From positions 1 through 22,830 of the IMG/VR virus record IMGVR_UViG_3300030104_005695: a stretch of DNA of 22,830 bases. One strand, 5' to 3'. The DNA comes from a virus. Shown in pieces: positions 1 through 22,754 of this stretch (positions are counted from its first letter, which is position 1; the number at the start of each line of letters is the position of its first letter). A model generated the notes under the pieces. It was not told the DNA's origin. It ran no database searches and was given only the letters and a program-made list of their open reading frames with translations. A program made the position numbers and the translations under genes.

Positions 1-57
1 CCTGAAACAATAGCTGCCGTAATCTCGGTCACTTTACGAATAGAGGAACTAATCTAG
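1..57 (+). CDS. 3' end of an unidentified upstream gene (partial)
   Basis: Frame 1 is open from the first base to a TAG at 55-57 and reads PETIAAVISVTLRIEELI. The piece is too short to assign a function. It runs in the same direction as the following membrane/secreted protein genes and stops 27 bases before the next start codon, which fits the tail end of a gene in the same plus-strand group. Only 18 residues are visible, so it could be a chance open frame. Confidence 0.35.
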   Translation, partial: PETIAAVISVTLRIEELI

Positions 58-73
58 ACTAAGACTAATTTGC

Positions 74-85
74 TATGTCGGCATA
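74..85 (+). promoter_or_regulatory. Palindromic motif copy 1 (TATGTCGGCATA)
   Basis: TATG and CATA flank a 4-base centre (TCGG). The motif abuts and overlaps the ATG at 85 of the first gene of the plus-strand envelope cassette. The same 12-mer, with changes only in the centre, recurs at 2967, 3684 and 13996, always next to a gene start. I infer an operator, a phage-specific promoter element or an RNA hairpin at the 5' end of the transcript; its function is not known to me. Confidence 0.5.
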
Positions 86-489
86 TGACCGAAAAACCAC
101 CAGATAAGAAAAAAGGTTTATTTGGAAGAATTAAGGCAGGTCTTGACGATAAGGAAGAACAGGTTTCTTTCATCTCAATGATTACGAGACTGGTGGTCCT
201 TGGGTGGTCGGGATTTCTGTTGACATTAGCGTATGTAGATTTACCTGAAAGTATCCTGCCTAAACAGGATATGGATCCGACCTTCATAGCTTCGATTTTT
301 GTTTCAACTCTCACGACATTCGGAATTGATGCCAATCAAAAAGGTAACGGCAAAAAGAAAGACAAAGAGTCTGATATTGAAAGCTCAGGAGGTTATCAGA
401 TTATTCGTGTAGAAACCCCAATTAAAATTATTGGAGCCGAAGAAATAAAACAAAGCAAAAAAGTAAACGACTTGGACAAACTTCAATGA
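85..489 (+). CDS. Small cyanophage-type membrane protein, possibly holin-like
   Basis: A 134-residue protein with a charged, Lys-rich N-terminus (about residues 1-30), a hydrophobic segment around residues 38-58 (LVVLGWSGFLLTLAYV), a short acidic loop, a second weakly hydrophobic stretch (FIASIFVSTLTTFGI), and a charged Lys-rich C-terminal tail. One or two membrane spans with charged ends is a layout seen in holins and other phage membrane proteins, but I see no diagnostic motif and do not assign lysis. I chose the ATG at 85 rather than the in-frame TTG at 70; neither has a clear Shine-Dalgarno sequence. The stop overlaps the start of the next gene as ATGA, so the two are probably translationally coupled. 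Confidence 0.75.
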   Translation: MTEKPPDKKKGLFGRIKAGLDDKEEQVSFISMITRLVVLGWSGFLLTLAYVDLPESILPKQDMDPTFIASIFVSTLTTFGIDANQKGNGKKKDKESDIESSGGYQIIRVETPIKIIGAEEIKQSKKVNDLDKLQ

Positions 490-986
490 AAAAACTCTTC
501 CTATTGCTCCTCTTGACGTCTCCCGTTTGTCGAGCAGATATGACGCATAACATCACGACTTCAACTCAGTTGACAGTTAATGGAGCTTATACAGATGCAA
601 GTCGTATAGGTAGTACTTATACAGTTTCAGGTTCCAATATAAAAGTTGCTGACGATGCTCATTTCGGCAAGCTAACTGCTGGTACTGCTACAGCAGCAGC
701 AACACTTGATGTTGGAGCGTATGACGTAAATACAGCAGGTGCAGCTTTTTCGTTCAGCGAATCATGGAATCAAGGTGACGCTGTAAATGCCATAGGTTCA
801 GGTGTTGACGTAACTTCAGGAGTGGTTGCAGACATGCCAGCTTACGGTGAAGTTTTAACGATGTCTGGAGGTGTTGCAGGTACTTTGGCAGGAACTATCA
901 CCAGTGCTGGAGTGGTTACTCTTACGGCTGGAGGAGCAAACACAAGTGCCATTGGCTCAGTAGTAACAAGTCTGACTGTGAAGTAA
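486..986 (+). CDS. Sec-exported Gly/Ala/Thr/Val-rich protein
   Basis: A 166-residue protein that starts with a clear signal peptide (MKK, then an FLLLLLLTS core, cleavage probably after CRA around residue 17). A cysteine at 15 lies near the cleavage site, but the surrounding SPVC is not a good lipobox. The mature part is low in charge and made of short Gly/Ala/Thr/Ser/Val strands, such as TLAGTITSAGVVTLTAGG near the C-terminus, which suggests a beta-rich extracellular or periplasmic fold. I recognise similar proteins in marine cyanobacteria and their phages, always of unknown function. It overlaps its neighbours by 4 bases upstream (ATGA) and 1 base downstream (TAATG), so it is the middle gene of a coupled group. 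Confidence 0.8.
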   Translation: MKKLFLLLLLTSPVCRADMTHNITTSTQLTVNGAYTDASRIGSTYTVSGSNIKVADDAHFGKLTAGTATAAATLDVGAYDVNTAGAAFSFSESWNQGDAVNAIGSGVDVTSGVVADMPAYGEVLTMSGGVAGTLAGTITSAGVVTLTAGGANTSAIGSVVTSLTVK

Positions 987-1411
987 TGAAGCGGTTTTTA
1001 CTGCTATTTTTATTATCTTTTTCTCCTGTTTATGCTGTCCCCGTCGTACCAAACTTTTCGAGTGGTCAAATGTCAGCCACAACACGAACCACCCAAAACA
1101 TTACTGAAACTATTGTCTCTACTGATTATAACACTGGGCATACATATACGATTAATGGAACGAATTTGTCTATTGATGGCACAACCCTTTCTCCACCGCC
1201 CACTGCAATCAATGAAACAGTAAATGGAACAAGTTACACATGGACTGGAGCAGATTTAAACCAGAAACCAAACGTCACGATTGCAAATCCAGGTCAAGCC
1301 TTTCAATACGCCGAAAGTTACATTGGACCAGGGATGTCGAACCAGACCAGAATAGATCGTGTCACCGTACTCGAATCTGTCACAGAAACGGTTTCAGTGT
1401 TCTCGCAATAA
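986..1411 (+). CDS. Sec-exported cyanophage/cyanobacterial protein of unknown function
   Basis: A 141-residue protein with a strong signal peptide (MKRFLLLFLLSFSPVYA, cleavage about residue 17) and a mature part rich in Thr and Asn. The mid and C-terminal pattern (NGTSYTWTGADL, then PGQAFQYAESYIGPGMSNQTRIDR, then VESVTETVSVFSQ at the stop, given here in pieces) matches a small family that I associate with picocyanobacteria and cyanophages. Its biochemical role is unknown. The start overlaps the previous stop by one base. The next open frame overlaps this gene in the -1 frame, and the real start of that next gene is unclear. Confidence 0.78.
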   Translation: MKRFLLLFLLSFSPVYAVPVVPNFSSGQMSATTRTTQNITETIVSTDYNTGHTYTINGTNLSIDGTTLSPPPTAINETVNGTSYTWTGADLNQKPNVTIANPGQAFQYAESYIGPGMSNQTRIDRVTVLESVTETVSVFSQ

Positions 1412-2028
1412 TATTATTTAGTGGGTCAAGTGCGTTAGCTAATACTTCACAAACAGCAGCACCAGTAGCTAATACCTCAGCTTCGCTAACTAATATGGCG
1501 ATCCAAACATTACAAGGAAATCTTATACAAAATCAATATGGAGGTGGAGTGGTTTGTCAAGGACCAATGGTAACATTTTCTCCTTTTATTACTGACTCAC
1601 ATTCATTCTCTAAACCAAGAGAATACTGGTACGACTCTCCAGTATATAGCGATGAAGGAGACATTTTATATCATCAAAGAACACGCACAGGACAAAAGGA
1701 TAATTTTTCACTTAATGTCGGTGCAAGTTTAACTTTTTCTATGCCACTTGATAAAAGATTTCAAGAGCGTTGCTTGAAAAACGCAAAACTGCAAGGAGAT
1801 CATCAACAGCAACTAATTGAGAATAAAAAACTAGACTGGCACATCGCCCGTTTAAGAGAATGTGGAAAATTAAAACTACAAGGAATAGAATTTGCTACTG
1901 ATTCTCCTTACTTTAATCTCTGTGAAGACGTTGTTGTTAAACCTAAAATGGGTCAGGTTTTACCGCATAGACATCTTATTTCTTCTCCTTCACAGGAGGT
2001 AAACCCCGTTTCTCCCGATAAGAATTAG
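1408..2028 (+). CDS. Third exported cassette protein, start codon uncertain
   Basis: From about residue 1 the frame reads a signal-peptide-like core (ILFSGSSALA, then NTSQ), followed by a conserved part with GGGVVCQGPMVTFSPF, RTRTGQKDN, a Cys-containing helical stretch (QERCLKNAKL...) and RLRECGKLK. This is the pattern of a third member of the cyanophage secreted-protein cassette. No ATG, GTG or TTG lies in frame between 1243 and 1495. The only upstream ATG, at 1240, would add about 56 charged residues entirely overlapping the previous gene. An ATA at 1408 overlaps the previous TAA, exactly where the neighbouring junctions have ATG. The start may be ATA, a mutated ATG, or translation may arrive by frameshift. 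The 3' end overlaps a minus-strand gene by 53 bases. Confidence 0.65.
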   Translation: MILFSGSSALANTSQTAAPVANTSASLTNMAIQTLQGNLIQNQYGGGVVCQGPMVTFSPFITDSHSFSKPREYWYDSPVYSDEGDILYHQRTRTGQKDNFSLNVGASLTFSMPLDKRFQERCLKNAKLQGDHQQQLIENKKLDWHIARLRECGKLKLQGIEFATDSPYFNLCEDVVVKPKMGQVLPHRHLISSPSQEVNPVSPDKN

Positions 2029-2689
2029 TTCGTCTTTCAGATAAGTTTGGTCGTTTTATTTTCTTTCCTAATATCTTTTTCACTCTATTTATTATCTGTT
2101 TGATGATGGGTTTGACGGCCTTCAAAAACAGTGGGGTACTCAATGCAGCAGTTGTAGCCACAAGAGTAATTCCTCCCGTTTTTACTACCTGCGGAACCGT
2201 GGGTATGGCATCGACTATTTGTTGTTGGACATTTAATTTTTTATATCTAGTTACACAACGGTTTCCAACCAATTCATACTTGATAATCTGTTTAGTTCCT
2301 TCTTCTACTTTTGTCCCAATGTCAGGCGCACCATCGGGAGGGCAAGCTTCTGGCGTTGCTTCTGGTACTTTTGGTGCTGGAGGGGTTTCTGGTTGTTCGT
2401 ATCGTTGAGGTTCTTCTTCTTTTATAGGCACAAGCTTATGAGGCTCATAATTCATAGGCTCATAACTTGGTGTCTGTGCAGGACACAGAATCATATTTCC
2501 ATCTGGATCGTTATCTAATAAAGCATCATTTTCAATACTCTTTCTTGCCTTTACACAAGGCATTTCAATAATTGGAAACCCTATCGGTACATTGATGGGT
2601 ACGCTCGGAGCATTAACAACAGGTGTTTTTATTAAATATGTTTTTACAGGTTGAACTCCTATTGCAGGAATTTCAATTTTAGGGATCAA
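1976..2689 (-). CDS. Proline-rich protein with C-terminal membrane segment
   Basis: A 237-residue protein. Residues 1-50 are rich in Ile, Pro and Val in a repeating pattern (IEIPAIGV, VPINVPIGFP). The centre (about 75-130) is Pro/Glu-rich and probably disordered. A hydrophobic stretch (GITLVATTAALSTPLFL) lies near residue 180, followed by a strongly basic tail (KKILGKKIKRP...KEKK). The layout is that of a cyanophage accessory protein I recognise, without known function; the extended N-terminus and basic cytoplasmic-type tail suggest a membrane-anchored linker. It is separated by 1 base from the membrane protein gene upstream and is convergent with the third exported gene, sharing 53 bases at the 3' ends. 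Confidence 0.72.
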   Translation of the reverse strand: MIPKIEIPAIGVQPVKTYLIKTPVVNAPSVPINVPIGFPIIEMPCVKARKSIENDALLDNDPDGNMILCPAQTPSYEPMNYEPHKLVPIKEEEPQRYEQPETPPAPKVPEATPEACPPDGAPDIGTKVEEGTKQIIKYELVGNRCVTRYKKLNVQQQIVDAIPTVPQVVKTGGITLVATTAALSTPLFLKAVKPIIKQIINRVKKILGKKIKRPNLSERRTNSYREKRGLPPVKEKK

Positions 2690-2690
2690 C

Positions 2691-2951
2691 TTAGAAAGGA
2701 TTATTAAACTTCATTGCTTTCTTCTCTTCATTCTTTTGCTGCCCAGGTGTTAACGCTCCAGTGGGCAAGGCAGGTCCAGATAACCCAGGAATCTTAATAG
2801 CACCCATTACTTTTTCCATTGCTTTATCTTGAAGCATCTTCTGATTATCCTCATTAGTTATCCAAAGATAACCAAACACCCCGCCACCAGTAATCGCTGC
2901 TACCAACAAAAAAGAAACAACCGCTAAACCATCAATAATTTTCCTGATCAT
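2691..2951 (-). CDS. Single-span membrane protein with Gly/Pro-rich tail
   Basis: An 86-residue protein with a short basic N-terminus (MIRK), one strong transmembrane helix at about residues 8-31 (VVSFLLVAAITGGGVFGYLWI), an amphipathic helix (KAMEKVMGAIKIPG) and a Gly/Pro/Ala tail ending in KFNNPF. This is the layout of a small cyanophage protein family of unknown role. The stop is 1 base from the ATG of the proline-rich protein, so the two form a pair. A copy of the palindromic motif lies 15 bases upstream of its start, in the spacer shared with the divergent 47-aa gene. Confidence 0.72.
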   Translation of the reverse strand: MIRKIIDGLAVVSFLLVAAITGGGVFGYLWITNEDNQKMLQDKAMEKVMGAIKIPGLSGPALPTGALTPGQQKNEEKKAMKFNNPF

Positions 2952-2966
2952 TTGTTTTAATCTTAC

Positions 2967-2978
2967 TATGTCGTCATA
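2967..2978. promoter_or_regulatory. Palindromic motif copy 2 (TATGTCGTCATA)
   Basis: This copy is in the 51-base spacer between two divergent genes, 15 bases from the minus-strand start (2951) and 24 bases from the plus-strand start (3003). TATG and CATA arms flank TCGT. Being the only obvious signal in a divergent spacer, it is well placed to act on both genes. Confidence 0.5.
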
Positions 2979-3002
2979 ATAAGCTTATATCTAATTTAAA
3001 AC

Positions 3003-3146
3003 ATGTTTGATGATATATGGAAAGATGCCTTACTTAAGGCCGCGCCATTAATGATATTAGTTTTAACCCTTACTACTATTTCTTTAATCCCTGCTTATAT
3101 GATGAAAAGCGTTGTATTAAATCAACAACAACTAATTAAAAACTAA
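3003..3146 (+). CDS. 47-residue membrane peptide
   Basis: ATG at 3003 to TAA at 3144-3146 encodes MFDDIWKDALLKAAPLMILV, a further hydrophobic run (LTLTTISLIPAYMM) and a polar tail ending in QQQLIKN. It has one transmembrane span of about 20 residues preceded by an amphipathic acidic helix. I recognise a similar small protein in cyanophage accessory cassettes, of unknown function. No good Shine-Dalgarno sequence is visible. It is divergent from the single-span protein gene and convergent, with a 4-base overlap, with the minus-strand gene that ends at 3143. Small size leaves some doubt, but the fit into the gap and the clean membrane profile support it. Confidence 0.65.
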   Translation: MFDDIWKDALLKAAPLMILVLTLTTISLIPAYMMKSVVLNQQQLIKN

Positions 3147-20981: not shown

Positions 20982-21474
20982 TTAACCCCTCCAAAGCAAG
21001 AGATATTTCTTTAGATAACAAAGTGTGAATTTTTGCTTGCTCCGTTTCTGAGGCAATAATTGGAGTTACTCGATCAGGGATTGCCTTTAAAGAATCACGT
21101 AATCCCATGTGCAATCTTGCAAGCTTTAATTTCAAATCAGACTTATCAACTAACTTGGCACTTTTCTCTCGATATTCCAATTCACAAAGCCTCGCAGCAA
21201 AAGCTTCTCGAATAGCTCGACTCCTAGCAAAAGAAGGAACAGCCTTGTTATCTGCTTCTTGCCTCCTTAAGTTTTCATCTAAGTTTGGTGCGCCACCTAA
21301 GCCTCCTCTATCTGGTGATCTGGTCCCCGCTATCTCCCTGTCTAGAGCCTCTTTATCTGTAATCATGTAGGTTCGGCCCTGTTTGCGAAGACTTGGCAAC
21401 CTTCCCGTAGCTGCCCAACGAATCAACGTCGTATAAGCAACATCACATTTGGCTGCATACTCTTTTAATGTCAT
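20965..21474 (-). CDS. Terminase small subunit (Nu1-like)
   Basis: A 169-residue protein with an N-terminal winged helix-turn-helix of the MerR/Nu1 type (LKEYAAKCDVAYTTLIRWAATG, LPSLRKQGRTYMI), a linker, and a helical Nu1-like domain (NLRRQEADNKAVPSFARSR, CELEYREKSAKLVDK, RLHMGLRDSLKAIPDRV, TLLSKEISLALEGL). It should recognise the phage cos region and load the large subunit. The ATG overlaps the methyltransferase stop as ATGA and its stop overlaps the large subunit start by 17 bases, so the three genes are translationally linked. Confidence 0.88.
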   Translation of the reverse strand: MTLKEYAAKCDVAYTTLIRWAATGRLPSLRKQGRTYMITDKEALDREIAGTRSPDRGGLGGAPNLDENLRRQEADNKAVPSFARSRAIREAFAARLCELEYREKSAKLVDKSDLKLKLARLHMGLRDSLKAIPDRVTPIIASETEQAKIHTLLSKEISLALEGLSVSSY

Positions 21475-22694
21475 GCCGCTATAACCTCCATTTGTCCGTT
21501 ATAAGGCTCACAAATAGCTGTTTTAGATGTATATTCCTCCCATCTTTTAACAATTACGTCGCAATAACGAGGATCTAGTTCCATTAAGCAAGCTTTACGT
21601 CTTGCTCGTTCCGCAGCAATAATTGTCGTCCCCGATCCACCGAACGAATCCAAAACCACTGCTCCTTGAACAGAGGAATTACACATCTGATATTGGAATA
21701 AATCAACAGGCTTCATTGTTGGGTGTTCCTTATTCCTACTTGGTCTGTCAAATTCAAGAACGGTTGTTTGCTTTCGATCTGTATTCCAAGTGTGAGCAGC
21801 ACCTTCCTTCCAGCCATATAAACAGGGTTCATGTTTCCAGTGATAATCTTGACGACCCATAACCATTGTTTGCTTTAACCAAATCAAGCACTGCCTTACC
21901 CTCCAACCCATCTCATCTGCAGCTCCTCGGAAATTAAAACCTTCACTATCTGCATGCCAAATATAAAAAGGTGCTCCAGGTTTCATTACAGCATCAGCCG
22001 CCGTATATACATCAACAAGAAACTGCCTGAAATCTTGATCGTTCATTGAGTCGTTTTCAATTACTAATTTCTCCTTTGTCTTGCCTTCGTAATCCACGTT
22101 GTAAGGAGGATCAGTAAGCCATAAATCAGCTTGCTTCCCATCCATTAACCTTTCCAACTGTTCAATACTTGTTGAGTCACCACAAAGAAGACGATGCTCT
22201 CCCAATATCCATATATCACCTGGCTTAGTAATTGGATCTTCTGGTGGTTCAGGTATCTCCTCCGCATCACCGTCATAAGCAGGATCTATCTCCTCTGGCA
22301 TTAAATCCGACAACTCCTCATCACTAAAACCAAGCAGACTTATATCAAAATCATCAACGACCAAATCCTTAATCTCACTGCGCAATAACTCCAAATCCCA
22401 ACCAGCATTTAGCGCAAGTTGGTTATCAGCCAGAACATAAGCTCTTCTTTGCCTTTCACTTAAATGATCTAAAACAACTATGGGAACTGTAGAAAGACTT
22501 AACTCCTGCGCAGCACAGAGACGACCATGACCAGCAATAATTCCATCGCTGCTATCAACCAAGATCGGATTTGTAAAACCAAACTCAACGATTGATTTTG
22601 CTATTTGTGCAATTTGTTCTTTATCATGTGTCCTCGCATTTTTTTCGTATGGCTTAAGACGATCTATTGGCCACAACTCAATTCTTTGAGCCAT
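21471..22694 (-). CDS. ParB-like domain fused to DNA adenine methyltransferase
   Basis: A 407-residue protein. Residues 1-110 are a ParB/Srx-like domain (IDRLKPYEKNARTHDKEQI, SIVEFGFTNPILVD, GIIAGHGRLCAAQ, RAYVLADNQLALNAGWD). Residues ~160-400 are a beta-type N6/N4 methyltransferase: DPPY motif (DLWLTDPPYNVDY, ~191), HPTMKP at ~324 and the AdoMet-binding VVLDSFGGSGTTI at ~347. DPPY points to N6-adenine. I chose the ATG at 22694 over an in-frame GTG at 22730, because GGAAAGGAG lies 12 bases upstream of the ATG and the sequence MAQRIELWPIDRL is the usual family start. Such enzymes often protect phage DNA from restriction or alter its regulation. It is the first gene of the terminase operon. Confidence 0.92.
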   Translation of the reverse strand: MAQRIELWPIDRLKPYEKNARTHDKEQIAQIAKSIVEFGFTNPILVDSSDGIIAGHGRLCAAQELSLSTVPIVVLDHLSERQRRAYVLADNQLALNAGWDLELLRSEIKDLVVDDFDISLLGFSDEELSDLMPEEIDPAYDGDAEEIPEPPEDPITKPGDIWILGEHRLLCGDSTSIEQLERLMDGKQADLWLTDPPYNVDYEGKTKEKLVIENDSMNDQDFRQFLVDVYTAADAVMKPGAPFYIWHADSEGFNFRGAADEMGWRVRQCLIWLKQTMVMGRQDYHWKHEPCLYGWKEGAAHTWNTDRKQTTVLEFDRPSRNKEHPTMKPVDLFQYQMCNSSVQGAVVLDSFGGSGTTIIAAERARRKACLMELDPRYCDVIVKRWEEYTSKTAICEPYNGQMEVIAA

Positions 22695-22754
22695 GTGGAT
22701 AGATAACTCCTTTCCAATCTCTTCAATCACTAAGAAATGAAAATCACTAAAACC

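Follow-up and report, generated by a model that had tools for sequence, protein, structure and literature searches.

The virus contig IMGVR_UViG_3300030104_005695, which is analysed here over its whole length of 22.8 kilobases (kb; positions 1 to 22,830) and is called the window, carries at its beginning seven small genes, g1 to g7 (85-3146). We think that these genes probably represent a late lysis cassette of marine cyanophages, acting in place of the canonical holin/endolysin/spanin set or sometimes beside it. The contig ends 84 nucleotides (nt) upstream of g1, and therefore the window shows nothing preceding this gene. By inspection of the translations, the minus strand bears a siphovirus late operon with terminase, portal, protease-capsid, tail and tail fibre genes, the tail fibre having a C-terminal chaperone-like domain. 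A sequence-only reading of the window had described seven small envelope-directed genes opposite this operon, coding for three Sec-signal proteins, three proteins with spans and one proline-rich protein, with no enzyme motif in any of them. All seven are present and the tally is correct. Moreover, Pfam and PHROG give no enzyme or lysis annotation for g1 to g7, and no match to a peptidoglycan hydrolase domain. Five of the genes indeed lie opposite the late operon, whereas g5 and g6 share its strand.

The first gene, g1 (85-489, plus strand), encodes a candidate holin of 134 amino acids (aa) with two hydrophobic segments and a charged C-tail, matching PF20048 (DUF6450, E=6.8e-25) and phrog_2714 (E=8.6e-33). 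It is followed on the same strand by two secreted proteins with signal peptides, g2 (486-986; 166 aa; phrog_564, E=2.7e-43) and g3 (986-1411; 141 aa), the latter ending in the conserved C-terminus SVFSQ and assigned to PF19847 (DUF6322, E=1.3e-32) and phrog_650 (E=6e-45). Since g3 also matches the family of g2 (phrog_564, E=2e-4), g2 is a g3 paralogue; it is not in the podovirus layouts described below. The product of g4 (1240-2028, plus strand; phrog_848, E=1.8e-82, and phrog_1755) is secreted as well. On the minus strand, g5 (1976-2689) converges on g4 with a 3' overlap of 53 nt (1976-2028) and codes, from a TTG start, for a proline-rich protein of 237 aa with a C-terminal span and a basic tail (phrog_570, E=3.9e-59), a candidate inner-membrane spanin-like part. 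The next gene, g6 (2691-2951, minus strand; 86 aa), matches phrog_568 (E=6e-9), whose label 'plasmid stability' comes from PHROG only, without a Pfam match; its sequence consists of an N-terminal span and a short Gly/Pro-rich tail. Finally, g7 (3003-3146, plus strand) encodes a hydrophobic protein of 47 aa with no Pfam or PHROG match, a siphovirus-only accessory present in just 27 loci and outside the core. The PHROG matches of g1 to g6, with E from 2e-82 (g4) to 6e-9 (g6), are more than chance, and only g1 and g3 have Pfam domains, both of unknown function.

Two of the secreted proteins are encoded by overlapping genes. In the window, the signal peptide of g4 straddles the stop codon of g3, no ATG, GTG or TTG is found nearby, and the sole in-frame start is the ATG at 1240, within g3. 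The stretch 1240-1411 (plus strand) is dual-coding: it specifies the C-terminus of g3 and, in the -1 frame, the N-terminus of g4, with a long basic n-region, a hydrophobic stretch across the g3 stop and a cleavage site after ~1440. The same -1-frame arrangement is found in 262 of 265 loci and in all three virus types concerned (podo-, myo- and siphoviruses), with an overlap of 112-178 nt and both products secreted; MED4-184, with a short overlap of 44 nt, is an exception. In 253/263 loci no stop interrupts the g4 frame along the final 37-57 codons of g3, while resampling of synonymous codons expects 2-4 stops and leaves this frame open in just 0.7-9% of cases. Stops do occur in other frames and farther upstream in the g4 frame. 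Because this frame is open and the only start lies within g3, the long basic n-region of g4 is encoded in g3. At 4-fold sites in the overlap, the entropy is reduced in podoviruses and myoviruses, whereas siphoviruses show no such decrease, and for this reason the absence of stops is the sole evidence of the overlap that we use. A programmed -1 frameshift joining g3 and g4 was considered and rejected, as inspection shows no slippery heptamer at the end of g3; an independent start of g4 fits better, given the conserved upstream ATG and the segment resembling a signal peptide.

It also follows from the conserved overlap that some records give g4 a wrong start, an error by which earlier searches would have missed its signal peptide. 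In P-SSP7, PSSP7_045 (L004:8548-9171) is annotated from a GTG that omits the signal peptide, and its frame starts inside PSSP7_044; it is annotated too short, because the start and n-region of g4 lie within g3.

Six of the seven window genes form a cassette common to more than 400 cyanophage records. This bears out the sequence-only reading, which held that similar genes keep company in cyanophages and which would have been refuted had they not been grouped elsewhere. Matches by tblastn in phage records amount to 442 for g4, 420 for g1 and 403 for g5, nearly all in cyanophage-named entries. For the analysis of gene order, 324 g4-bearing loci (282 distinct) were collected and scanned with profiles built in this work. 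In 312 of the 324 loci g3 is present, and each of the families g1 to g6 recurs in hundreds of loci. The cassette spans the three virus types, with three fixed layouts dominating: g5p-g1-g3-g4 on a single strand in podoviruses, g2-g3-g4 converging on g5-(gp163)-g6-g1 in myoviruses, and g1-g2-g3-g4 converging on g5-g6 in siphoviruses. The C-terminal region of podovirus g5p, including the span and the basic tail, matches that of g5 (hhalign Prob 90.5), and in P-SSP7 the PHROG matches identify PSSP7_044 as g3 and PSSP7_045 as g4, PSSP7_043 being the g1 homologue. The minimal core is the g5-g1-g3-g4 of podoviruses, to which myo- and siphoviruses add g2, g6, gp163 and g7 as accessories. The convergent g4/g5 overlap is found with the same 53 nt in 58/97 siphovirus loci and with a median of 101 nt in 95/103 myovirus loci. 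It is the second conserved overlap of the cassette and reaches 221 nt in P-SSM7 (L088:6761-6981). The topology of the membrane proteins is conserved too, with two hydrophobic segments in 207/236 g1 proteins, a C-terminal span in 186/206 g5 proteins and an N-terminal span in all 178 g6 proteins. Linkage, topology and overlap are thus seen directly.

A host origin of the cassette was rejected. Among 84,980 bacterial genomes, a scan that sees two peptide patterns only gave 18 loci, apparently phage contigs in assemblies, and therefore the family looks phage-specific. The 188-189-kb contigs NZ_RMVE01000006.1 (L325, filed under a Nonlabens strain) and QCLS01000003.1 (L330, from a Prochlorococcus single cell) carry a cyanomyovirus cassette and are probably co-sequenced phages, with the size of a whole cyanomyovirus genome.

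The view that the window holds an undescribed system stands only in part. Sullivan et al. described in 2010, in 15/16 cyanomyoviruses, a group of the hypothetical clusters T4-GC 218, 219, 234, 235 and 237, frequently accompanied by a 'plasmid stability' protein, and judged them 'clustered for functional reasons' (PMC3037559), so that the existence of the myovirus cluster was already known. Neither a function, nor a podo- or siphovirus version, nor the g3/g4 overlap appears in the accessible part of that text. Judging by the searched papers, the spread across virus families, the overlap architecture, the late-promoter motifs and the lysis-slot evidence are new.

The position of the cassette in podoviruses points to lysis. 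In P-SSP7, NATL1A-7 and S-RIP1, g5p-g1-g3-g4 lies between the tail fibre and the small terminase. The cassette-less P60 has an endolysin in that slot (gp37, phrog_181, E=2.8e-31), as does the cassette-less S-CBP2 by annotation, and S-CBP4, another cassette-less relative, has a homologous reading frame there. Besides this directly observed replacement, the distribution of endolysins shows a negative association. Seven records have g4, g1 and g3 together, and nine have none of the three. Endolysins of phrog_10051, phrog_181 and PF00959 occur in 8/9 cassette-less cyanophages (S-PM2, S-SZBM1, P60, P-SS2, S-CBS1, S-CBS2, S-CRM01 and S-CBWM1) versus 0/13 cassette-bearing ones (Fisher p=2.8e-5), a value to be read with the reservation that two of the three families were picked because cassette-less phages carry them and that the compared phages are related. 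Taken on its own, PF00959, whose choice did not depend on these phages, gives 4/9 versus 0/13 (p=0.017). Moreover, the 13 cassette-bearing cyanophages have no match to PF13539, PF01510 or PF01551, and of six more phages with the P-SS2-type endolysin domain, examined as a follow-up, five are without g4. Among 27 P-SSP7 proteins without clear function, no Pfam match is to an endolysin, holin or spanin. For a 38-kb siphovirus relative of the window, the Pfam matches listed cover 30 proteins and likewise include no lysis family, barring an NlpC/P60 tail-assembly type.

Myoviruses provide a further indication, as the T4-type late motif [ACT]ATAAATA stands just upstream of g1 in 34/84 loci and of g2 in 19/90, against a background of 1.8% and only 0-2% before the internal g4, g5, g6 and gp163. 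The motif precedes both myovirus transcription units, that of g1 and that of g2. In S-RIM2 and S-H35 together it is found before 6/20 late structural genes and 0/26 replication genes, and in S-SZBM1 before just 1/12 late genes; the cassettes of siphoviruses and podoviruses showed no such motif.

Slot replacement, endolysin distribution, late motifs and topology support the lysis or spanin-like role that the sequence-only reading had listed, while its two other proposals, receptor masking and virion decoration, were not strengthened. From these observations we infer a lysis function, a role for each protein and an N-out orientation of g5. The most likely holin is g1, which with its small size, two spans and charged tail would make the inner membrane permeable. 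Through the Sec pathway, the g3 and g4 proteins would get to the periplasm or the outer membrane. Anchored by its C-terminus in the inner membrane, g5 might reach across the periplasm with its proline-rich outer part and, together with the secreted g3/g4 pair, disrupt the outer envelope in the manner of spanins, no lipoprotein being involved. The cassette would then be the membrane/envelope part of lysis, and the wall could be degraded by an unrecognised protein or a neighbouring endolysin, or its degradation may possibly be unneeded. We regard as doubtful the more far-reaching idea that many ocean cyanophages lyse without a classical endolysin or lipoprotein spanin, a holin-like g1, a C-anchored g5 and a dual-coded secreted beta pair rupturing the thin-walled picocyanobacterial envelope.

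Several observations weigh against a lysis function, in addition to the choice of endolysin families and the relatedness of the phages mentioned above. A lipobox is found in only 0-2 members of each cassette family (2/271 for g4), and fold searches of g3 and g4 versus solved structures gave no significant match. Syn5 is without the cassette and without a recognised endolysin, and S-CAM7, the sixth carrier of the P-SS2-type domain, has a diverged partial g4 beside the C39-type domain. A GH24 lysozyme lies 1-2.6 kb downstream of g4 in ~9/68 podovirus loci, and a C39- or GH24-type protein within ~5 kb in ~6/112 myovirus loci. The cassette does not simply equal an endolysin, because some contigs carry both, and the same contigs rule out a strict complementarity. 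Finally, the g1 unit of myoviruses comes after regA, in a region of replication genes.

In S-RIM2 and S-H35 the cassette coexists with a related glucosaminidase-like domain inside proteins of 730-840 residues, the one of S-RIM2 lying beside other large genes; this would suit tail-borne lysins. The locus L125, with a myovirus-type cassette, encodes on the opposite strand, ~2 kb upstream of g4, a 299-aa protein matching GH24 and C39-type endolysin profiles.

The structural models give some further information on the secreted pair. That of g4 (predicted local distance difference test, pLDDT, 71) has a beta meander and a 42-residue helix, and that of g3 (pLDDT 83) predicts a long beta hairpin, with two strands of 24-25 residues flanking a small beta domain. 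In the viral library g3 has five significant fold matches, all uncharacterised, and the named ones are from cyanophages or uncultured marine phages. An endolysin identity of g4 was rejected for want of a family or fold match. A pore-forming role of g3/g4 was also set aside: the best PDB matches, long-hairpin pores and phage collars, had E of at least 0.02 and a TM-score of ~0.2 and were not used.

Other functions of exported proteins have to be considered. Superinfection exclusion or receptor masking, in which they alter the envelope and block injection by further phages, as do Imm (membrane) and Sp (periplasm) of T4, would suit the mixture of membrane and secreted proteins, the position of the myovirus cassette among replication genes, beside regA, and its near-universal presence in phages whose hosts form a dense and competitive population. 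We consider it unlikely, as the late-promoter motif precedes both myovirus units, the podovirus cassette closes the late operon, in the lysis slot, and genes of that kind are not expected to replace endolysins. The late motifs would equally fit envelope-directed parts of the virion, serving adsorption or genome entry through the membranes, and so would the podovirus position directly after the tail-fibre genes and the long beta strands predicted for g3. Nevertheless, components put together in the cytoplasm do not usually have Sec signal peptides, two of the products (g1 and g6) are integral to the membrane, and the cassette genes are not singled out in the accessible texts, as distinct from the protein lists, of published virion surveys (PMC3037559), which makes this explanation very unlikely.

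A membrane-remodelling or transport module could also aid late infection, for instance in nutrient uptake or membrane stress, and travel with lysis genes without performing lysis. In favour of this, no cassette protein has an enzyme or lysis motif, some phages have both cassette and endolysin, and a mobile-cassette reading was proposed in 2010, according to the accessible text (PMC3037559). Such a module would leave the endolysin replacement in the podovirus slot and the negative endolysin association unexplained, and we find it quite unlikely. We think that a lysis cassette remains the best way to account for these genes.

The question matters because cyanophages account for much of the mortality of Prochlorococcus and Synechococcus, while the lysis genes of these phages are largely unassigned. 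A survey of spanins counted 20 phages of these hosts as spanin-less and asked about another route through the outer membrane (PMC6139136). P-SSP7, Syn9 and P-HM2 are among them, and so are the cassette-less P60, S-PM2, P-SS2 and Syn5 (PMC6139136); because of the latter, the list alone does not point to the cassette. A lysis cassette, if true, would address this published status with a named four-gene candidate that is common to all three virus types and can be tested by experiment.

Some neighbouring genes deserve mention. In the window, a 419-aa protein adjoining the terminase gene (21471-22730) resembles, by its sequence, a fusion of a ParB-like domain with a DNA methyltransferase. The 38-kb siphovirus relative (L343:4408-5313 and nearby) has genes for a sigma-70 family factor and for an excisionase-like protein, a hint of a temperate or host-transcription-steering lifestyle. 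Just before the small terminase of T7-like cyanophages with and without the cassette lie the small families phrog_12220 and phrog_2738 (L348:36392-36835, Syn5 gp47-48; L087:6404-6637; L086:6501-6659; L349:34061-34324, P60 gp38), which are possible further lysis genes; P60 gp38 bears a weak resemblance to an Rz-type spanin (E=0.03).

Compared with known systems, the cassette shares its podovirus slot with the endolysins of P60, S-CBP2 and P-SS2 type (phrog_181, phrog_10051), or is replaced by them in related phages; those are enzymes, while no cassette protein matches an endolysin family. The late map of T7 runs from 17.5 (class II holin) through 18 to 18.5/18.7 (Rz/Rz1), and in T7-like cyanophages the cassette, after the tail fibre and before the small terminase, takes the position of the T7 holin. 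Being small, with two spans and a charged C-terminus whose lysine-rich character is evident by inspection, g1 has the traits of a class II holin. Unlike in T7, there are four genes instead of one, secreted proteins are added, and g1 has no similarity to holin families by Pfam or PHROG.

With Rz/Rz1 the cassette shares an overlapping pair of envelope-protein genes and the combination of inner-membrane-anchored and exported parts. It differs in that both overlapping products, g3 and g4, are Sec-exported and the i-spanin candidate g5 is anchored by its C-terminus, instead of having an N-terminal span with a periplasmic coiled coil. A canonical two-component spanin was rejected, since without a lipobox no cassette protein has the lipoprotein signal of an o-spanin. 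By inspection, g6 has an N-terminal span but only a short Gly/Pro-rich outer part, unlike an i-spanin. Nor is g5 a typical unimolecular spanin, having a C-terminal span and no lipobox, although in T1 gp11, of that class, a C-terminal span goes together with predicted beta structure (PMC6139136). As to the myovirus cluster of 2010, the window is from a siphovirus, has g1 moved upstream of g2 and is missing gp163 (GC 219). With the T4-GC labels on the P-HM2 and P-SSM7 records, whose families the window genes match, g1 corresponds to 218, gp163 to 219, g5 to 234, g4 to 235, g2 to 237 and g6 to the 'plasmid stability' protein.

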